Source of the DNA: a virus
Length of the DNA stretch: 24,929 bases
Direction: 5' to 3' (one strand)
Virus record (IMG/VR): IMGVR_UViG_3300020450_000086
Location: 1-24,929 of that record
Part shown: one piece after another, positions 1,052-18,106 of the stretch
How positions within the stretch are numbered: position 1 is the first letter of the stretch
Layout of the letters: the number at the start of each line of letters is the position of its first letter
Program-made: the position numbers and the translations under genes
Notes under the pieces: model-generated
The model's input: only the letters and a program-made list of their open reading frames with translations
What the model was told of the DNA's origin: nothing
The model's database searches: none

Positions 1052-2466
1052 CAGAAGCTACCTGTATAATTACCAAATTCACCGAATGGATTTGTTTCTC
1101 CCCAATCAATTAACTCATCAGCACCATCTTCAATTGCTTGATTTTGATCATATTCAGTGCTTTGATTATCAATTGTAGAGAACGTACCTAATGTATATAT
1201 GGCATTAGACTCAACCCCTCTAATCATATCACCATCAATGAAACTACCCGTGCGATTCATAACCTCAAGAGTATATGTAACTCCATTCCAATCAGCAACT
1301 TCAGCGATAGTAGGACTGATTAAATCATACATAGTTGCTTGACCACCACTAGTTGTTGTCTCTATCCAAGCGTTAATTACATATTCCACATTTACAGAAT
1401 CGTAATAGAAGAAACCAGGTGCAGTTGTTGGGGTTGTACCATTATACTGATAAACATAACTTATTCTTTTATCTTCAAATTTCCAGTAAAAATATTTTTT
1501 CTGTGTAGTTGTAGCAAACACAGGATCAAAACTACCAAGAGCAGTAACTTTAATACATTTATCTGCTGAAGTCCATATTCTACCTGCACCTTGTGCAGTA
1601 AATCCACCAATAACAACATGTTCATCTGCCATAAAGTTTATCGCTTCTGGTGGTGCATCAATAGTAATAGTTGGTGGATTTAAGTTAGTTGAATCATATC
1701 CACTACCACCGTTGACAATATTGAGAGTAACCACACCACCATCCATAATGGATGTAGTAATAATTCCACCATTACCATTACCAGCATTTCCAATGGTAAC
1801 ATTTGGTGGAGAGTTATATCCAGTACCAGCAAGCGTTACAGTTGCTTGTGAAATAGCACCACTTGAATCTACCACAAGAGATCCAGTTGCTGTTTCTCTA
1901 GTTGTAAGAGAAAGATTTAGAGTAGTAATATTACTAAACTGTCTTTCTACATCATCAATTTCATCAATACCTGTGTCAAATTTATCAGCACCCTGCTCGT
2001 AAAGCTCAGCAGTGAGTTGATAAAAATACTGTTTGCCTAACTGGAAGAAAGGATTCTCTCTTTCAACATACTTAACTTCATATAGATCTTCTGTTAATGG
2101 AAAATAAATCAAATCTCCCTCATTTGGTCTACCATCAACAGCAAGATTCAATGCAGGATTTGCAGATTGTTCCCATCTTCTTCTTGATACAACAAAGGTT
2201 ATTTCATCAGTTATTCGTAAACCAAACTTACTTACAAACTCTGCACCTGCACCAAAACCTTCTACGTTTACAAGGAACATCTCTATCATGTAACTCTGAT
2301 TAAATTCAGATTGTATAACTTCCCCTAACGTCTTATCTTTCAGGTGAACTCTAGGAATATAAAAAACATCAGATCCAAACAACTTGATTTGTTCATCAAC
2401 CAAGTCTTGTACAAGATTCTGTTCGGTGGTAACACCACCGTGTTGAGGAAAGTATACTTTTTTCAT
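1051..2466 (-). CDS. gp14: Neck protein, gp14-like, with a large internal beta-rich insertion
   Basis: In T4, gp14 joins gp13 to form the neck that seals the filled head and accepts the tail. This protein is 471 aa, much longer than T4 gp14 (about 256 aa). The N-terminal ~190 residues look canonical: a start of the type MKKVYFPQHGG, then FNQSYMIEMFLVNVEGF, SRRRWEQ and YEVKYVERENPFFQLGKQYF. The C-terminal ~50 residues also look canonical (YDQNQAIEDGADELIDW then NPFGEFG). Between them is roughly 200 residues of beta-type sequence that includes two GxGYxSxxxxPPxxxI repeats. Its start overlaps the gp13 stop as ATGA and its stop overlaps the gp15 start as TGATG. Confidence 0.85.
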   Translation of the reverse strand: MKKVYFPQHGGVTTEQNLVQDLVDEQIKLFGSDVFYIPRVHLKDKTLGEVIQSEFNQSYMIEMFLVNVEGFGAGAEFVSKFGLRITDEITFVVSRRRWEQSANPALNLAVDGRPNEGDLIYFPLTEDLYEVKYVERENPFFQLGKQYFYQLTAELYEQGADKFDTGIDEIDDVERQFSNITTLNLSLTTRETATGSLVVDSSGAISQATVTLAGTGYNSPPNVTIGNAGNGNGGIITTSIMDGGVVTLNIVNGGSGYDSTNLNPPTITIDAPPEAINFMADEHVVIGGFTAQGAGRIWTSADKCIKVTALGSFDPVFATTTQKKYFYWKFEDKRISYVYQYNGTTPTTAPGFFYYDSVNVEYVINAWIETTTSGGQATMYDLISPTIAEVADWNGVTYTLEVMNRTGSFIDGDMIRGVESNAIYTLGTFSTIDNQSTEYDQNQAIEDGADELIDWGETNPFGEFGNYTGSF

Positions 2467-3269
2467 CCGATCATATCAAATGGTGGTAATTCGTATGTAG
2501 AGAATGATTTCTCTTCTATCTCAGCAATTTCTTTTTGAGCATCTTCAAAAATTTCTCTACCATTAATGGCAACTCCGCCAGGAAGTTGGATACCATTAAA
2601 TTTAATTAGGTTCTGACCCCATTGTCTTTTAATGAGAGCAGTAGCATATTTTTTTAAAAATATATCACTGTAAACTTGAGTGTATGTATCAGGATCTAAT
2701 GCCCTGTGGCATTCAACAATGACATGTACATCTTCATCCAACATGTCTTTCCCTACATCAATATACAATCTGTCTTGTCTCATATTGAATCTAAACTGAA
2801 CAAAAGCACCATTATTTAAAACCATGTCTAGAGTTTCCATCCATTGCTTAACCATATAATAGTTAAGAAAATCTAGAGATCCTACAGCATATAGGTCGTT
2901 TAAAAATATTTGATATTCTATACCAAACAAATTATTTCTAATTGCGTTACTAGCTAAACCAAATACTTTAGTTACACCAACTACATCCGAAGGTAATTCA
3001 AGATATCTATCTCTAACTTCCCATTTTGTACCACTAGCTAGAGTAGTTGTTGTGTTTGATGTTTCAAATTTTGTCTCATCAGCAGCAGTAAATAAATGTT
3101 TCATATAAGCAAGTTCAGTGCCATCGTAGTGTCTCATACGATAATACTGAAGTGCATCGTCTATTGAATCCTCTATCTGATCATCATCAACATTAATTTC
3201 TAGTACAGGGAACCCTAACTTTCTAAGACAATAATCTTTGAGCTCTGCTCTACTGGTGGGTTCAGCCAT
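2463..3269 (-). CDS. gp13: Neck protein, gp13-like (head completion)
   Basis: This 268-aa protein begins MAEPTSRAELKDYCLRKLG and continues with FPVLEINVDDDQIEDSIDDALQ, a hallmark start of gp13-type neck proteins in marine T4-like phages. T4 gp13 (309 aa) binds the portal vertex and, with gp14, closes the DNA-filled head for tail attachment. The C-terminal part (DPDTYTQVYSDIFLKKYATAL, then KRQWGQNLIKFNGIQLPGG) also fits the family. It is the first gene of the coupled 13-14-15-16 unit. The start is supported by an AGGGG Shine-Dalgarno sequence eight bases upstream. That sequence lies inside the second arm of a hairpin overlapping a late promoter, so expression is probably late-specific. Confidence 0.9.
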   Translation of the reverse strand: MAEPTSRAELKDYCLRKLGFPVLEINVDDDQIEDSIDDALQYYRMRHYDGTELAYMKHLFTAADETKFETSNTTTTLASGTKWEVRDRYLELPSDVVGVTKVFGLASNAIRNNLFGIEYQIFLNDLYAVGSLDFLNYYMVKQWMETLDMVLNNGAFVQFRFNMRQDRLYIDVGKDMLDEDVHVIVECHRALDPDTYTQVYSDIFLKKYATALIKRQWGQNLIKFNGIQLPGGVAINGREIFEDAQKEIAEIEEKSFSTYELPPFDMIG

Positions 3270-3272
3270 AAA

Positions 3273-3302
3273 AAATACCCCTAGTATGTCCTAGGGGTAT
3301 TT
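3273..3302 (-). terminator. Perfect 12-bp hairpin with U-run, overlapping the gp13 late promoter and holding its RBS
   Basis: On the minus strand the sequence AAATACCCCTAG, a six-base loop GACATA and CTAGGGGTATTT form a perfect 12-bp stem. It is followed at once by further T residues (six in all, 3275-3270) and then the gp13 ATG. RNA arriving from upstream genes should fold this stem and may terminate there. The Shine-Dalgarno AGGGG is inside the second arm and would be paired in read-through RNA. The first arm overlaps the TATAAATA late promoter, so RNA started there cannot form the full stem. Confidence 0.8.
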
Positions 3303-3305
3303 ATA
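3298..3305 (-). promoter_or_regulatory. T4-type late promoter TATAAATA for gp13-16
   Basis: This is a perfect match to the T4 late promoter -10 element on the minus strand, followed by CCCCT. By T4 spacing, transcription would begin about six bases after the motif (near 3292), giving a leader of about 23 bases before the gp13 ATG. It is the only strong promoter candidate for the neck/terminase unit within the window. Confidence 0.8.
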
Positions 3306-3334: not shown

Positions 3335-3868
3335 TTACTGACCCATTTTTTTAGCAACATCATAAGCTATAAGTGCTTTTGCATCAGCTGGAACAGTTGG
3401 ATCTAGAGCTAGAATTTCTGCTTCTACAGCATTACCTTTATCTCTGATTGCCTGTTTTTCTACTGCGAGAGCTTTCATAGCTTCATTATTACCATTAATA
3501 AGATCTACTTCTTTTGCTTTTTCAACTTTCCAAGCTGTTTCACCATATTCACCTGTTAGAACACTTCTTGTTACAAACTTTATAAGTTCAACAGCATGCT
3601 GTTGATATTTTGGTGCATAAATTTTAGCTTGATCATCTTGAAATTTTGCAAGTTGATCCGCTTTTGATAAAGATTTATAAGGATTCTCAAGTCCATCACC
3701 AGCAGCGTTAAGTCTATAATTGGTTATGAAATCATTTTCTGTATCAATCTTTTCTCCCTCAAAAACAATAGTTGTGTCATTTTGAGAGTCTTCTACTCCT
3801 TCACGAGGATCATAATCAAGTTGATGTGTAACATGTTGCTCTTGTTTAGAGTAAATTAAATATGCCAT
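3335..3868 (-). CDS. Hypothetical 177-aa protein upstream of the neck genes
   Basis: I do not recognise the family. The N-terminal half is polar and acidic (YSKQEQHVTHQLDYDPREG, then NDFITNYRL). The C-terminal half looks helical and Ala/Lys/Glu-rich (KALAVEKQAIRDKGNAVEAE). There is no signal peptide or membrane segment. The ATG is preceded by AAGGAAA about ten bases upstream, an acceptable RBS. It sits between a likely adhesin gene and gp13 and probably belongs to the structural or assembly set. A small fibre or chaperone-type accessory protein is possible, but that is only positional inference. Confidence 0.7.
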   Translation of the reverse strand: MAYLIYSKQEQHVTHQLDYDPREGVEDSQNDTTIVFEGEKIDTENDFITNYRLNAAGDGLENPYKSLSKADQLAKFQDDQAKIYAPKYQQHAVELIKFVTRSVLTGEYGETAWKVEKAKEVDLINGNNEAMKALAVEKQAIRDKGNAVEAEILALDPTVPADAKALIAYDVAKKMGQ

Positions 3869-5786: not shown

Positions 5787-8700
5787 TTAGACCGCAGACA
5801 AGAAGTATGCAGTAGCTGACACGTTGTTCACTGATTTTGAAACCGCACCAGATGTAGGTATTGACGTATCATCAGTTCCTACAGTAGTAACTATTGTTTT
5901 ACCAAGCACTGTAGTAGCACTTAGAACACTAGTATTATTAATATGGTATGCCTTACCAGAAGCAAGATCCATATTCTCAGATAAGATCCAACAAGAAGAA
6001 CTGTTTGACCAATTAAATGTCTTGTTAGTTGTTCCGAGTAAGGAAATACCTCCTCCATCAGCAGTAACATCTGTAGCACCACCTGTTGAGAAAGCAGCAC
6101 CAGTGGCACTTCCTGATCCACCAAATGTCTGGTCAATTGTTACTGTAGTTCCACTGACAGCAGTTACGATACCAGGAGTACCAAGTGTTACAGTGCCACC
6201 GCCACTATCAAGCGTAATTTGTACGCCAGGTGCGATGTTATCCGTATCAGAGACATTCGTGATTGTATTAGCACCTTGTGCTATATCTCCAGTAAAGTTA
6301 CCAACAGCAACTTTACCTAATTCAATGTTACGATCCTTAGAGGTTAACGTAACAGAATTGATAGATGTTGTTGTACCCTTAACTGTAAGGTTACCTCCAA
6401 CAGATAAATCACCTCCAACAGCAGAAAGTTGGTCAATATATGTTTTAACTGCTTTCTGTGTAGCAACCTTAGCATCACTATTTTGTGATAGTGTACCATC
6501 AGTTGAGAATTCATTAATAGCAGCACCCAACTGAGCACCGATAGAACCAAGTCTCAAACTTGATAGACCAGATAGATCAAAGGCAGAAGCGTCTAGTGTT
6601 GCCTTACCAGTTGACTGTTCAACCTTAAAGTACTTACCAACAGAGAAGTTACCATCTTGGTCAGTAGATACGTAGTAAACACGACCAGGACGACTTTCAC
6701 TTGTTTCATATGATGGAACATTTTCAGATAGTGGGAGACCAGGCCAGTTAGTGTTAGCCTTACTTCCAGTACCAATATCCAAGAAGTCATGAGCAGTCAA
6801 GCGAACTTGAGAATACTGATAACGAATCTTAAACTGTTGTCCATCTCCAGCTTCAATTGTTTTCTCGTCTGCAAACTGTAATGTTGTAATACCTTTTGTA
6901 TCAGGAACAACAGCAGTAATTTTTAAGAACTCAGTGCCAATTAAAACGAAGTCATCTGCATCAAGACCTACATTTGCTTGCTTAACACGTATAGATGTCG
7001 CAACATCTGTAGCATCTTCAATTAGTTCATCTTGAGTTGCAATTTTAGCGTTGAAAATTAGAACAGGATCATTATTTGAATGAGCACCAGATGTGGTTCC
7101 TTCTTGAGCACGTGTTGCTTCAACAGATGTTGCTGAAGGGAATGAATTAACTTTAAATAATTCATTGTTAATAGCAATAAAACCATTTATAGTCATTCCA
7201 CTAACAGTTGAAACCTGCATAGTTACAGGTGAAGAAGCACCTGCTGCGACATTAGCAGCTAATGTTGCATCAGGACCACCCTTAGCAAATAAAGCAACTG
7301 CTGAAGTACCATCATGTGCAGCCGCAGTTGTTGCAAGTTTACCTCTTTCAACTGTTAAAGAACCACGTCCATCTGGAGCAGTGTAACTAGAATTAGAGAT
7401 AACGTATGAACCAGAGTCATCGTTAACTCCATTATCTACTAGTTCAACAGAACCACCTGCTGCTGGAGCTTGTGATAAATTATTAGTTGTAATAATAAAT
7501 CCTTTCTGTCCTTGAACAGCATCTGTGTTGTTTACAAGAGTTGCAGTAACACCAGATGTTGCACCTGTAATTACTTCACCTTGTGAAAATGTTCCCTTAA
7601 CTGCGAAGTAATACAAGAAACCAGAAGCATTCTGGTCGTTGACCAACTCACCAACAGCACCAGATGTACCACCAGTAAGTCTCTCTCCAATTTGAAAACT
7701 TCCAACGATAGGATTGTTTGCTATATCAATTGTAAGACGCTTACCTTTGACTGAACCATCAACGGTTGTCTCAGAAGAATCAAATCCTCTAGAAATTGCA
7801 CCGTACTTACCATAAGATGAGTTACCAGTAACAGCACGAATTCTACCACCACGTGTAGCAGTGTAAGAAATATGTGCATAGTATGTGAAGGATGATACAA
7901 TCTCAGTTGCAGCACCATTAGTAACATAGAAACCAACACCACCATCTATGACTTGAGTGAAGGAGTCAAACACCATTGATTTGTTAGATGGTGTTGAAGA
8001 ATTATCATAGTGACTATGAACTCCACCATCAAGTAGAATACCAACTGCTGCTCCACTAAAGATTGTACAGTTCTGAATGTATGGTGATTTAGTAATTGCT
8101 GAGTTAGGATTCAATCTAAAGAACACACCCTTAATAGTGGCAGTGTCCATATCCTTGTCATCAGATCCAGAAGGAACAAATCCACTCATTCCATCACAAA
8201 CTAAGTCCTTAACAGTTGTGCCAGAACCAAGTAACAACATAGTAGATTCAGCGTTAATACGAGTACCTACACTACTGATAGAAATTGATGCATCATTATT
8301 AACAGTAGCTGCCATACTACCAGTGTTAATAGCGGATGTAATAATACCTCTTAGTGTTGTAATTGCAGATGCAACTGTTGGACATGTTGGATTATTAGTA
8401 TCAGTAGTAATTGTAAGATCTCTTACTTGAGTTTGTGTATTTCCAGTAGAAGTACCAACCAAGATGTTACGCATAACTTCTATAGAAACTGACTCAACAT
8501 ACTCAAGCATCTTGATGTCAGTAGCATTAGTTCCTGAAATTGCAGTACCACCAACTAATGCAGTACCATAGTCATAAACTTTATTGTTACCGCCATGTTT
8601 GACGTTAAATGCAATAGCATCAACCAATTCAGCAAGACGACTCTTAACAGTTGCTTCTGTACCACTTACAGCACCATCATTTGCTACATGACGATGATAT

Positions 8701-10199
8701 GCTTCCCAAGCAATAAACATTCTGTTAGAATTGAGTAAATTACGAGCATCTGCATGCTTGTTATCTACAATATTAAGATACTTATCAGAGGTAGTCCACT
8801 CACCACCAGTAAGATTTAAAAGATGAACATTAGCATTGTAGTCTGAATCTAAAACCATAGCAGTTTTAGTTCCAGCAGCGTTGCTGATTGTTTCACCAAA
8901 TCTAATAGATGACAAATTAGTTGTAAGACCCAATGCTTGCATATTTGAATCGCCAGCAGCAGGTTTAATAATAGAAGTTCTTAAGTTGTCACCGATAATA
9001 GAAACGAACTCAGGAAGAACGATAGGAAGAACCTCATCGTACTCACCAGCTTTAACAAAGATTGAGATTGGATTAGTTGCGGAAGGAGCAGATGCACCTG
9101 TTAATGCACTAATATAATCACAAGCATATCTTAGTGAAGCAAAACCTCTAGAGATGCTTAGACCGTTATTAGTATCAGCACCCTCCTTAGTTACGTAGAA
9201 TACAGAAGCTGTTGTGTTATTCTTTTCCCATCTTGGAAGTAATGGAGAACCACCAACTGTCAGAATCTGCCCAGACGCAGCTGCTTGCTCCGCAGCAGTG
9301 CCTGTAGACCCAGATGGTAGTGCAATCCTATTAACACCACTTGCTGCCTGATAGAGGAGGTCTCCAGTCTCTTGTAGAACCTGAGCTCCACTACCACCCT
9401 GTGCTAGGAAGTTCCAATAGTTTCCATTAGGATCTAGTTCAGGAGCGTTAGCAGCACCAGTAGTATCAGATGTTATACAAACATAGGAGTTTGAGTTTCT
9501 ATTAACAACATCACCTAACTGATAGACAGTTGCTGAATTCCATGCACCTGTCCAGTTAAGACCTTCAGTAATTAAAGTCCAATTAGCAGTTGCAGTAGGA
9601 ACAACTCCTTGAGATGATAGTTTGTTTACATAAGAATTACCACCATAACGTACAACGTCACCTAAACTATATGCTGTATTAGGATCATATGCACCTTGAG
9701 CAGAGAAACCAGTTGTTAATACTTCCCAATTGGTTGTGTCTTCATTAGGAGTTGTAGTATTAGTATGAGTTCCTTTAGCAACGTAACTATACCCTCTGTA
9801 AGTTACGATATCACCTTTCTGATATTCAGTGCCAGATGTCCAAGTATCTTCAAAATTCAGACCTTCTAAGTAAACTGTAAATTTAGTGCTATCAAAAGTA
9901 CTACTAGAGGTGTGACCTACTGTACAGAGATATTGTGTATTTCCATACTTAACAATATCATTTACTTTATACCAGTAGGATCCTGTCCAGTTTCCTAGGT
10001 TGTCAACTCCTTCTACATGAAGATCCCAATTACTTAAATCTGATGAGTAAAATGAGGTTTCTGTTGATGAAGTGTGGTTGGTTGTACACACGTACGTGTT
10101 GCCACCATATTTAACAATATCGTCAATGACGTAAGCAGTGGAAGCAACCCAACTACCTCTCCACTTAAACTTCAATCTACCGAGTCTAAAATCTGCCAT
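5787..10199 (-). CDS. Large fibre/baseplate protein (1470 aa) with five carbohydrate-binding-like repeats and a beta-helix body
   Basis: Residues ~10-270 hold five repeats of about 50 residues with the pattern W..G..Y..GD.V.YGG..YVC, resembling chitin/carbohydrate-binding modules of the CBM5/12 type. From ~336 a right-handed beta-helix-like body begins (FYVTKEGADTNNGLSISRG, then IFVKAGEYDEVLPIVLPEFV), as in pectate-lyase-fold fibres. Later come GExLTGxTSGA motifs and a segment near 1140-1260 (HDFLDIGTG.., TQKAVKTYIDQL), the latter typical of trimeric fibre stems. Most of the body is paralogous to the 892-aa protein encoded at 22055-19377, with an extra helical insertion around residues 460-650. 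The start has AGGAA 11 bases upstream and lies 12 bases after the preceding stop. A virion fibre or baseplate-attached adhesin is likely; a particular T4 gp number cannot be assigned. Confidence 0.88.
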   Translation of the reverse strand: MADFRLGRLKFKWRGSWVASTAYVIDDIVKYGGNTYVCTTNHTSSTETSFYSSDLSNWDLHVEGVDNLGNWTGSYWYKVNDIVKYGNTQYLCTVGHTSSSTFDSTKFTVYLEGLNFEDTWTSGTEYQKGDIVTYRGYSYVAKGTHTNTTTPNEDTTNWEVLTTGFSAQGAYDPNTAYSLGDVVRYGGNSYVNKLSSQGVVPTATANWTLITEGLNWTGAWNSATVYQLGDVVNRNSNSYVCITSDTTGAANAPELDPNGNYWNFLAQGGSGAQVLQETGDLLYQAASGVNRIALPSGSTGTAAEQAAASGQILTVGGSPLLPRWEKNNTTASVFYVTKEGADTNNGLSISRGFASLRYACDYISALTGASAPSATNPISIFVKAGEYDEVLPIVLPEFVSIIGDNLRTSIIKPAAGDSNMQALGLTTNLSSIRFGETISNAAGTKTAMVLDSDYNANVHLLNLTGGEWTTSDKYLNIVDNKHADARNLLNSNRMFIAWEAYHRHVANDGAVSGTEATVKSRLAELVDAIAFNVKHGGNNKVYDYGTALVGGTAISGTNATDIKMLEYVESVSIEVMRNILVGTSTGNTQTQVRDLTITTDTNNPTCPTVASAITTLRGIITSAINTGSMAATVNNDASISISSVGTRINAESTMLLLGSGTTVKDLVCDGMSGFVPSGSDDKDMDTATIKGVFFRLNPNSAITKSPYIQNCTIFSGAAVGILLDGGVHSHYDNSSTPSNKSMVFDSFTQVIDGGVGFYVTNGAATEIVSSFTYYAHISYTATRGGRIRAVTGNSSYGKYGAISRGFDSSETTVDGSVKGKRLTIDIANNPIVGSFQIGERLTGGTSGAVGELVNDQNASGFLYYFAVKGTFSQGEVITGATSGVTATLVNNTDAVQGQKGFIITTNNLSQAPAAGGSVELVDNGVNDDSGSYVISNSSYTAPDGRGSLTVERGKLATTAAAHDGTSAVALFAKGGPDATLAANVAAGASSPVTMQVSTVSGMTINGFIAINNELFKVNSFPSATSVEATRAQEGTTSGAHSNNDPVLIFNAKIATQDELIEDATDVATSIRVKQANVGLDADDFVLIGTEFLKITAVVPDTKGITTLQFADEKTIEAGDGQQFKIRYQYSQVRLTAHDFLDIGTGSKANTNWPGLPLSENVPSYETSESRPGRVYYVSTDQDGNFSVGKYFKVEQSTGKATLDASAFDLSGLSSLRLGSIGAQLGAAINEFSTDGTLSQNSDAKVATQKAVKTYIDQLSAVGGDLSVGGNLTVKGTTTSINSVTLTSKDRNIELGKVAVGNFTGDIAQGANTITNVSDTDNIAPGVQITLDSGGGTVTLGTPGIVTAVSGTTVTIDQTFGGSGSATGAAFSTGGATDVTADGGGISLLGTTNKTFNWSNSSSCWILSENMDLASGKAYHINNTSVLSATTVLGKTIVTTVGTDDTSIPTSGAVSKSVNNVSATAYFLSAV
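9389..10170 (-). repeat. Five ~50-residue CBM-like repeats at the N terminus of the 1470-aa fibre
   Basis: The five units begin at KWRGSWVAST, NLGNWTGSYW, FEDTWTSGTE, AQGAYDPNTA and WTGAWNSATV. Each carries the aromatic pattern W...Y..(G/D)D.V.Y....YV and ends near W.(L/V)...G. The DNA copies have diverged, so these are old protein-level repeats and not recent DNA duplications. Confidence 0.75.
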
Positions 10200-11074: not shown

Positions 11075-14000
11075 TTAAATAATCCAGACTTGAGTAAATG
11101 GTGGTTGGAATAATTGTACTTGTATTAATGCAACACCAGAAATTGTAAGGGTTCCACTTCCTCTGTATGGAGCACGGATATATGCATCGTCGGCATTATT
11201 AACATTAGAGATATTACCAGAACCTTGATATGCACGAACACGAAGATCGGTGCTATCTCCTGTAATATCAATCTCAACTCTTGGTTGTTCCGCAAATGTA
11301 AGTAGTGGATCTCCCGAAGTTCCTCTGATTGCAAGAGTTCCACCTTGACTGAGAAGTTTGGAAGTTCTGCTGTCTGCTCCAATTCCTGTAAAGGAGAAAA
11401 GCATTTGTTTCTCCAGAGGATTGAAGGTAAGAGCTTCCGCAGTACCAGAAAGTTTTCTGAGTAAACCAAATCCAATAAAGTCTCTTGCTCTGACAACATC
11501 TGCATCTCCAAAAATTCTTGCTGTACCAGAACCAATATGAATTGGAGAGAATCTATCAATAGCATCTCCAAGTATTCTGATTGTTCCTTGACCAACTTTG
11601 TCTCTTGCTCTTGTAGTTGTAGATTGACCCAAGAATGAGAAGAGCATTTGCTCTTCTGTTGGATTGAAGGTAAGAGATTCAGCAGCACCACTAAGTTTTC
11701 TAAGAGATCCAGATCCAATGTAAGGTCTACTGCGAGCAATATCACCATCTCCATAAACTCTGAATAGAGATGGAAGTGTAGTGATATCAATCCTTCTAGA
11801 CTCTGCTGCACCAGATAGTTTTCTAAGTGAACCAGATCCAACATAATCTCTTGCTCTAACAACAGTTGCATCTCCAGTAACGAAGATAGTACCAGAACCA
11901 ATATTATTTGGAACGAATTTATCTGTTGCAACTCCACTGAGTTTGACAGTTCCACCCTTACTAATTTCTCTAGCAAGTCTGCTTTCAGAAGCTTGACCTG
12001 TAAAGGAGAAGAGCATTTGCTCTTCTGTTGGATTGAAGGTAAGAGATTCGGCAGCACCAGAGAATTTCCTAAGTGTACCTGAACCAATCCAAACAGGAGC
12101 AAATCTGTAATCACCGTAAACATAAAGTTTAATTCCACCAACAGAATTCCAATTAGGTATGAATCTAATATCAGATGCTTCTGGATATATTTTAATTCCA
12201 CCAGATGCAATCTCAACAGAACTAACAGCATCACTTGCCTTACCTGTAAAGGAGAAGAGCATTTGCTCTTCTGTTGGGTTGAAGGTAAGAGATTCAGCAG
12301 CACCGCCAAGTTTTCTGAATGTACCACTACCTTGATATCTTGGAACTAAAACAACTCTGGCATCACCACCAATTCTGAATAAACCAGTGCTCTCATGTGC
12401 AACAGCAGATACAATTGTTGCACTATTGAGTGTAAATAATGTTCCTTCTCCTTTTGGTGGAACCGCAATTGCTTTTTCTGATCCTGTTCCTGTAAATGAG
12501 AATAGAAGTTGTCTTTCTAGTGGGTTGAATGCAATGCTTTCGGCAGCACCAGAGAATTTCTTGAGTGAACCAGAGCCAATAAATGGTTTGGTTTTCTTGA
12601 AGACTGCATCTCCAAATATAGAAGTTCTTCCAAAGACATCTTCGTGAACTCGTACCTTTGGAATTGCTTCTCCAGATATACGTATTTGTGTGCCTTCTTC
12701 TGGAGGATTTGCAACAAATGCTTCTGCACCAGATCCAATAAAGGAGAATAGAAGTTGTTTCTCCAGTGGATTGAAAGTAATACTTTCTGCTGCACCACTG
12801 AATTTTTTGAACAAACCAGAACCAACAAATGTTCTCGTTCTGTCTGTATCTCCCTCTCCAGTAATCTTGATAATACCAGAACCTTGATACTTGGGTATAA
12901 AGAATACTGGGAAAGCATCTCCAGATATACGAACTTGAGTTCCTTCTTCTGGAGGATTTGCAGTAAATACTTCTTGACCAACTCCTGTAAAGGAGAAGAG
13001 CATTTGTCTCTCTAATGGATTGAATGATACAGACTCCGCTGAACCACTGAGTTTTCTGAGAGAACCAGAACCAATATGTTCTGATAATGTAGATTCCGCA
13101 CCAATACCAGTAACTCTGACAACACCTGAACCTGGATGTAAGAGACTGAATAAGATGTATGCTTCTGATCCAAACTTGAAGAGACCACCAGAAACTGCAC
13201 CAATAGATGTAGACTCTGCTGCACCAGAGAAATTGTAAAGGAATCCAGATCCAATATATGTTGTTGGAGTGAAGGACTCTCCAACAGTTCCAGTAACTTT
13301 GATTTCTCCACTACCAAAGTAAGGAGGTGTCCAGAAGGTAGAACCTTCACCAAAGATAGTAACACCAGCCTTACCACTAACAGAGTAACCAGTTGTGACA
13401 ATATTCTCAACAAAGAATGATGTTGCTGTGCCAGTAATATCAAATGCACCAAATGGACATACTTTAGAAAGAGTTCCAAGAATATGACCATAATCTCTAC
13501 GTTCTGGTGCATTAAGATCAGATATGAGACCGTAATCTTCAGTAACAGATGGTACTGTTAATTGATTTGGAATTGTATATGTAGATCCTGGTGCAATAGC
13601 AAGTGTTGTATTAGGAGCAATCTTGATACATCCACTAGTTGCAGTCGTATCAGTAGATATTGTTCCACTATCAAGAACACAATTACTTAAATTGTTATCA
13701 ACAAGACTACCGTAATCTAGATCTACCTCATCTACACATGCAGAATTATTGTATGCTTCTGTATGTTTTTCGTGACCCTCTTCAAGATTTAACCACTTAA
13801 GTCGTACAGGACCAAGGTTGGTGACTGCCTTGTCGTAGAAATCAATATTGCCAAGATTAATGTATTCACTTGGAATAACATAATTATCAAGAGTAAATGT
13901 TCCAAGTTCACTAAGTTCATATGTTTGTGGTTTTCTTGGTCTGAGTTTGATTGTACCAGAACCAACCCAATCAAATGTTCCTTTCTCTGCTTCAAGTTTG

Positions 14001-15811: not shown

Positions 15812-15830
15812 CGCAACCTAATAATCCAAT

Positions 15831-15856
15831 AAAAAAGGGGTCGCAATTGCAACCCC
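15831..15856 (-). terminator. Intrinsic terminator after the 479-aa gene
   Basis: On the minus strand GGGGTTGC, loop AATT and GCGACCCC form an 8-bp GC-rich stem (one U-G wobble), followed directly by TTTTTTATT. It lies 41 bases after the stop of the 479-aa gene and 20 bases before the ATG of the 1578-aa gene. Form and position are those of a Rho-independent terminator for the leftward transcript. Confidence 0.88.
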
Positions 15857-15877
15857 CACAAACTAAGAATATAAACT

Positions 15878-17374: not shown

Positions 17375-17382
17375 TATTTATT
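17375..17382 (-). promoter_or_regulatory. Late-promoter-like AATAAATA for the 479-aa gene
   Basis: This is a one-mismatch variant of TATAAATA in the gap between the 241-aa and 479-aa genes, 39 bases before the ATG. Confidence 0.5.
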
Positions 17383-18106
17383 AAAGTGCTAGCTTCATTG
17401 AAACTACACACCTTTGTATATTTATAGCATATACAATTTCAAATTGTAAAATATCTCCAGCATTCAATGCAGTATTCCATGTGGAGAGTGATGTATCTTG
17501 ATTTATACGTTGCCTTGTTCCTTGTCCTATATCACCTAATGTTGGTCTTTCTGATCCACATATAGATGAGAAATTTGGAAAATTTGCAAAATCAACTTTA
17601 CCAATATCAAACTGAACCTGACCCTCTTGGTCAGCAATAATTGTCCATGATTCAATTTTGCCAGTTACGTCAAGAGTCATGTCTCCTTTGATACCCGAAG
17701 ACATTGGTGCAGATCCAGCATCAACAACAAAATTAATTGTTCTTGTCAAATCCGCTGTTGTAGATAATCCTACAACATATACTTTCTGTCCTGATGTTGG
17801 GGGTGTGGTAAAGATTAAATTAGTTCCGCTTGTACTATAATCAATACCAGGAACTTGCACCAAACCATCAATTGCAACAATTAATTGTTGATCATTTGCT
17901 GGTGTATATGGTTCACCAACAGGATCAATCAATGGAAATCCAGTATTAGTTCCGTTAAATATCCAACTAGATGTATCAAGTATCTCATTACCATATTGAA
18001 GATACTTACTGGGAATTTCATAATTAACACCAACATTATACTTCTTCTGAGGTTCAGAAAGAACCTGATAGTTAGAAGATTTTACTGATACATTGTAATT
18101 TGGCAT
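17381..18106 (-). CDS. Fibre-type virion protein (241 aa)
   Basis: Residues ~55-115 carry a phage fibre-type beta domain of the pattern FPL...YTPANDQQLIVAIDGLVQVPG, then DYSTSGTNLIFTTPP and SGQKVYVVGL. The C-terminal half (GDMTLDVTGKIESWTIIADQ, then GQVQFDIGKVDFANFP, then a SICGSERPTL segment) is another beta domain that I do not recognise by name. The start overlaps the stop of the 111-aa gene as TAATG and has an AGGAG RBS eight bases upstream. A minor tail-fibre or baseplate decoration protein is the best reading. The first residues are Ser/Asn/Tyr-rich and contain an IPSKYLQYGN phrase similar to IPSxYxxxGN phrases in the 1578-aa protein. Confidence 0.82.
   Translation of the reverse strand: MPNYNVSVKSSNYQVLSEPQKKYNVGVNYEIPSKYLQYGNEILDTSSWIFNGTNTGFPLIDPVGEPYTPANDQQLIVAIDGLVQVPGIDYSTSGTNLIFTTPPTSGQKVYVVGLSTTADLTRTINFVVDAGSAPMSSGIKGDMTLDVTGKIESWTIIADQEGQVQFDIGKVDFANFPNFSSICGSERPTLGDIGQGTRQRINQDTSLSTWNTALNAGDILQFEIVYAINIQRCVVSMKLAL
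17419..17426 (-). promoter_or_regulatory. T4-type late promoter TATAAATA, inside the end of the 241-aa gene
   Basis: This is a perfect motif on the minus strand, 83 bases before the 479-aa ATG, within codons for Ala-Ile-Asn-Ile. It is a stronger match than the intergenic AATAAATA and may be the real promoter of the 479-aa gene. Confidence 0.55.

Follow-up and report, generated by a model that had tools for sequence, protein, structure and literature searches.

A late promoter embedded in a terminator-like hairpin before the neck gene gp13 of T4-like cyanophages

Several genes of phage T4 are preceded by hairpins into which a late promoter has been built. At genes e, soc, I-TevI and mobE/segB the late promoter overlaps, or itself encodes, the 5' strand of a hairpin that covers the ribosome-binding site (RBS), and late RNA, which lacks this strand, is translated (PMC3014915, PMC2988022). 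Genes of the e/soc type sit on early and middle polycistronic transcripts (PMC2988022). The T4 late box, TATAAATA, spans positions -13 to -6, and CTAAATA beginning at -12 is also known (PMC1524935); the late promoter sequence of S-PM2 is NATAAATA (PMC2984593). It has also been noted that T4-like genomes carry terminators at conserved places (PMC1524935). A second kind of composite element, the PeSL (promoter-early stem-loop) of T4-like phages, is summarized as a short promoter-terminator at intergenic junctions, associated with swappable modules (PMC4503421). Both promoter-in-hairpin leaders (translational and acting on early RNA in T4) and, going by that summary, composite promoter-terminators are already known. 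The promoters of PeSLs are early promoters. Little is known of how long late modules on the same strand are kept separate in T4-like cyanophages.

In this study, a window of 24,929 nucleotides of T4-like cyanophage DNA (IMG/VR record IMGVR_UViG_3300020450_000086) was analyzed. Its minus strand carries gp13, the neck protein or head-tail adaptor Ad2 (2463-3269; PHROG 211, E 1e-44), gp14, head closure Hc2 (1051-2466; PHROG 460, E 6e-119), and gp15, the tail sheath stabiliser (254-1051; PHROG 227, E 7e-92). These are the only neck-unit genes inside the window; terminase genes probably follow beyond gp15, judging from relatives. The window contains no genes for gp55, gp33 and gp45, on which initiation at T4-type late promoters, 6 nt beyond the box, depends; a late sigma factor, a late coactivator and the clamp are annotated in S-SCSM2R and S-PM2. 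Directly upstream of gp13, a gene of 177 amino acids with no PHROG match (3335-3868, minus strand) would be the donor of any read-through RNA. The late structural module upstream includes a tail fibre protein (5787-10199, minus strand; PHROG 9851), and tail-fibre and virion genes, several preceded by ATAAATA-type boxes, occupy about 21 kb on the same strand. Since these are late genes with late boxes of their own, any read-through RNA should be late too, and the element before gp13 would form a boundary between two late units rather than an early/late switch. The sequence-only reading had drawn a parallel with early read-through at T4 e and soc. That parallel is not supported here: by gene content, what enters gp13 from upstream would be late RNA and not the long early or middle transcripts that enter gene e.

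The gap before gp13 reads TATAAATACCCCTAGGACATACTAGGGGTATTTTTTATG (minus strand, 5' to 3'). Within 39 bases (3267-3305, minus strand) are packed an exact TATAAATA late box, a perfect 12-bp hairpin, AGGGG, a T6 tract and the gp13 ATG, all of which the sequence-only reading had placed correctly to the base. The box (3298-3305) is overlapped by the hairpin 5' arm, AAATACCCCTAG (3291-3302). The loop is GACATA (3285-3290), where the commonest relatives have a GAAA tetraloop. The 3' arm, CTAGGGGTATTT (3273-3284), includes AGGGG (3278-3282), which is the likely gp13 Shine-Dalgarno (SD) sequence; its anti-SD duplex energy is -6.6 kcal/mol, compared with -7.3 for a test AGGAG leader. The T6 tract (3270-3275) stands immediately 5' of the ATG (3267-3269) and is predicted to be a terminator tail. 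The box lies just upstream of a late gene, as a T4-type late promoter (TATAAATA or NATAAATA) does, and the GC-containing stem-loop with a U-tract at once after it has the form of an intrinsic terminator (score D +28, by the d'Aubenton-Carafa formula). TATAAATA was found six times in the window, always on the minus (coding) strand, with 2.1 occurrences expected on both strands together, and the gp13-leader hairpin is the only perfect stem of at least 10 bp.

A generic sigma-70 and terminator scan of the window did not detect this hairpin because the stem runs into, and absorbs, the T-tract. No further copy of the element pattern was found in its own viral record, an Rfam search of the element returned sub-threshold chance matches only, and a search of bacterial genomes gave a single match, in Chryseobacterium, judged to be chance. 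Other structures were observed in the window. An ordinary strong terminator, GGGGGTTGCAATTGCGACCCC with T6 behind it and no embedded late box, lies at about 15825-15875 (minus strand) before a gene of 1578 amino acids. The 20-nt palindrome AGAAGAGCATTTGCTCTTCT occurs three times within that gene (11638-11657, 12007-12026 and 12253-12272). A TATAAATA box at 17414-17436 is enclosed in an AT-rich hairpin of 8 bp, without a T-tail, where the gene at 17381-18106 ends.

The element recurs before gp13 in other phages. A 34-nt consensus, TATAAATACCTCTAGGAAACTAGRGGTATTTTTT, was detected in S-SCSM2R and in 80 stretches from IMG/VR, and in the loci examined all 88 exact matches lie directly before gp13 (87 by protein match, the 88th, where the gene is cut off, by an identical start). 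A scan for variants, which excluded T at stem position 6 and placed no condition on the opposite base, gave 40 sites; all have C in the 5' arm with G opposite, and at least 38 are at gp13. Of the two others, one is cut off and one (stretch L193) is not at gp13; the L193 copy, at 1800-1830, is followed by neither a T-run nor gp13. Given this recurrence, and the hairpin's standing as the sole perfect stem of such length in the window, the element is not a chance arrangement.

For a wider survey, gp13 loci were collected by protein similarity alone, together with named isolates, and 245 loci were reduced to 118 representatives at 95% identity. In type A, which includes the arrangement in the window, the late box overlaps the 5' arm; in type B the box is in the loop; in type C a terminator is followed by a box. 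Types A and B have 25 representatives each, type C has six, and 62 have no element. These automatic classes are rough: one leader assigned to A is plainly B-like, and two assigned to none look like B and A. Type B, found in S-PM2, Syn1 and S-RSM4 among others, has an unrelated terminator hairpin with the start region outside the stem; the S-PM2 leader is CCCTATCTG-ATAAATA-CAGGTAGGG-ATTTTT. Shuffled upstream regions gave the element types in 0 of 2760 cases, under rules slightly stricter than those of the survey. The terminator score was positive in 24/25 type A, 22/25 type B, 6/6 type C and 0/62 other leaders, a contrast that is partly circular, both a stem and a T-run being part of the class definitions.

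The predicted late start falls within the hairpin. The 39 nt fold at -18.9 kcal/mol, compared with -7.1 +/- 2.2 for shuffles (z -5.5; 0/200 shuffles), and the whole gp13 leader has a z of -3.2; a leader starting at 3292 folds like shuffles (z 0.26). The start near 3292 proposed in the sequence-only reading agrees with a box at -13 to -6 (PMC1524935), and the predicted first base, at 3292 on the minus strand, is A. By the same T4 rule (PMC1524935), predicted late RNA keeps at most two stem pairs in 25/25 type A representatives and none in 25/25 of type B. The merged layout is real and recurs before gp13, and it is so placed that late RNA with the predicted start cannot form the stem. The predicted +1 is a purine (A or G) in all 50 type A and B representatives and A in all 25 of type A, and predicted late leaders are 19-28 nt long in both types.

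The function common to types A and B is most likely termination, or insulation, that locally started RNA escapes, because type B leaves the RBS unmasked yet keeps the terminator and the embedded promoter. We judge it probable that a late promoter has been built into an intrinsic terminator here, and that the combination insulates the neck unit from the tail-fibre/virion unit in a start-site-selective way. A polymerase arriving from upstream would copy both arms, and the hairpin with its U-tract should halt transcription at the gp13 start codon. A polymerase starting at the embedded gp55-type late promoter, with its predicted +1 at 3292, would proceed into gp13-gp14-gp15; its RNA would hold only the last two bases of the 12-base 5' arm, so that the hairpin could not form and transcription would run on. 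We assume here that the cyanobacterial polymerase programmed by gp55 terminates intrinsically at such hairpins. In type A the 3' arm might add a second lock: it holds AGGGG, and read-through RNA that escaped termination would be poorly translated.

The same structures could instead serve mainly as a translational switch of the kind described for T4 gene e, soc and I-TevI, in which read-through RNA is made with its RBS masked and late RNA exposes the RBS. The promoter-in-stem logic is that of gene e, I-TevI, mobE and segB (PMC3014915, PMC2988022), and folding of type A leaders points the same way, with the SD region less unpaired in read-through RNA (0.00-0.43) than in late leaders (0.21-0.75). 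By these predictions the type A RBS is inside the read-through stem and free in late RNA, as at gene e. Masking of the SD region is, however, absent in type B, where the terminator and embedded promoter are kept all the same, and the T4 cases are on early or middle transcripts (PMC2988022), whereas upstream RNA is expected to be late at gp13. We consider a mainly translational role unlikely, if the most credible of the alternatives. The proposal that the RBS is hidden in read-through RNA and exposed in late RNA thus agrees with the folding predictions for type A only, and masking as the core function is not supported, as the gp13 terminators of S-PM2, Syn1 and S-RSM4 leave the start region outside the stem. 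What stands of the earlier switch reading is the merged architecture, its recurrence and the type A folding.

The surroundings of the element vary more than the element itself. Carriers of the consensus have gp13 proteins mostly 45-60% identical to that of the window, and their upstream flanks differ greatly, while the element is nearly identical. One upstream gene family precedes gp13 leaders of type A, of type C and without an element (six loci), which suggests module exchange at the gp13 boundary; upstream genes are reassorted with respect to both gp13 and element type. Type labels are scattered on the gp13 tree, which needs 21 label changes in all, so that the cases are not independent. 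These observations would also fit a PeSL-like recombination junction, in which a short composite promoter-terminator stays uniform because tail modules are swapped by crossovers within it. Against this, nearly all copies precede gp13, S-SCSM2R has a single copy of the gp13-type element in its genome, and PeSLs, as far as the published summary goes, use early promoters. Recombination as the main explanation is improbable, more so than the translational one, and it is not exclusive: a junction of this kind is compatible with an insulator.

Mere compaction, the overlap of an ordinary terminator and an ordinary late promoter in a short intergenic space with no advantage, is favored by type C, where the two signals lie side by side with no overlap, and by the several phages that manage with a promoter alone. 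The gaps in types A and B (about 51 nt to the upstream gene) are nevertheless not the shortest; phages with no late box have a median of -1, the genes mostly abutting. Two unlike hairpins, moreover, both put the start past the 5' arm, in 50 of 50 cases. Random placement alone straddles +1 about 27% of the time, and luck is an unlikely explanation because the gp13 tree implies repeated origins or transfers of the types, even though the cases are not independent. We give compaction very little credence.

Pairing of the two arms is constrained in both types. In type B, with 13 pairs, 98.7% of cells are paired and 11 are changed on both sides; the covariation score of 0.307 exceeds both that of shuffles (0.144 +/- 0.022) and that of slid controls (at most 0.105). 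In type A, 98.2% of arm cells are paired and nearly every change replaces C by U opposite G on the sense strand, which fits sense-strand RNA pairing and not a symmetrical DNA site. Across phages, core position 6 is C-G, U-G or U-A. Change on both sides against the commonest pair was sought in the type A alignment and none was found; covariation there is weak, and it was rejected as decisive proof. Compensatory stem changes, which the earlier reading had proposed looking for in related phages, accordingly appear in type B, and type A has almost only U.G changes. That the hairpin is really a palindromic operator over the late promoter, recognized as DNA by a dimeric protein, has next to no chance of being right: in the window the DNA does form a perfect inverted repeat, but the commonest relatives have T for C opposite G, which breaks the DNA symmetry and keeps the RNA pairing, and the type B sequence is different.

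The element can be lost. Four loci (L001, whose gp13 is 96% identical to that of the window, L005, L006 and L020) lack the T-run, and in their leaders, which are homologous to that of the window, the stem is mismatched or shortened. Uncompensated stem-breaking changes, named beforehand as evidence against the switch, are thus present in part of the relatives. Weakened stems in the nearest kin of the window indicate that the element can decay and is not essential, and it is dispensable in view of the 62 of 118 gp13 genes that have none. In Sf-FS3 and S-SSM7 the upstream gene is on the opposite strand, no read-through would come from it, and the terminator hairpin is absent. A test on orientation (no hairpin where the upstream gene is divergent) was discarded; both phages fit, but the automatic call is unreliable for short upstream genes.

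Similar layouts were observed at a few other genes. S-SCSM2R has three further late boxes (148611, 190795 and 207415) whose predicted start is inside a terminator-like hairpin; they precede a hypothetical gene (gene 174), a 2OG-Fe(II) oxygenase and a carbohydrate phosphorylase. A scan of the S-PM2 genome for a start within a hairpin found gp13, and its folding list has a type A layout, GATAAATACCTCCATATGGAGGTTTTTTATTATG, at 115169 (about 15169 of stretch L386) before a RusA-like gene. The few extra copies in these genomes suggest that the device is used sparingly. Promoter-gated termination, which has two or more dissimilar forms at gp13 and may also operate at a few other genes, may be a general device of T4-like cyanophages, a tentative idea that we rate somewhat below even. 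Terminator sequence would then be encoded between the late box and +1, or the box itself would serve as loop, and only RNA started at such a site could pass it. If it is general, such one-way insulators would let late units stack on one strand with no cross-talk. If our reading of the gp13 element is right, it would supply a compact, testable rule (start within the hairpin and pass; arrive from outside and stop), explain a motif conserved across marine phages, offer a small part for insulating stacked genes, and mark gp13 as a conserved boundary of tail-module exchange.

In the part of the literature compared, no description was found of a late promoter embedded in a terminator and fixed at gp13 in two unlike forms. 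The element is a variant of the T4 promoter-in-hairpin leaders and of PeSLs. As in T4 e, soc, I-TevI and mobE/segB, the late promoter lies in the 5' strand of a hairpin and late RNA would lack that strand. In those genes read-through is early or middle and control is translational, whereas at gp13 late RNA is what should arrive from upstream, and the hairpin ends in a terminator tail; their hairpins cover the RBS, and gp13 has a second architecture, type B, that leaves it free. Like PeSLs, as summarized, it is a short composite promoter-terminator motif at an intergenic junction, but the box is of the late and not the early type, lies inside the hairpin, and occupies one dedicated position with few copies per genome. 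T4 itself (NC_000866; 7598-7632 of stretch L388) has a strong GGGGCC-GCAA-GGCCCC hairpin in the 31-nt gap between wac and gene 13, without a late box or a long T-run. With the ordinary intrinsic terminators of T4-like phages the element shares a stem-loop and U-tract between transcription units; it differs in that the promoter is inside the hairpin, so that escape would depend on the start site.
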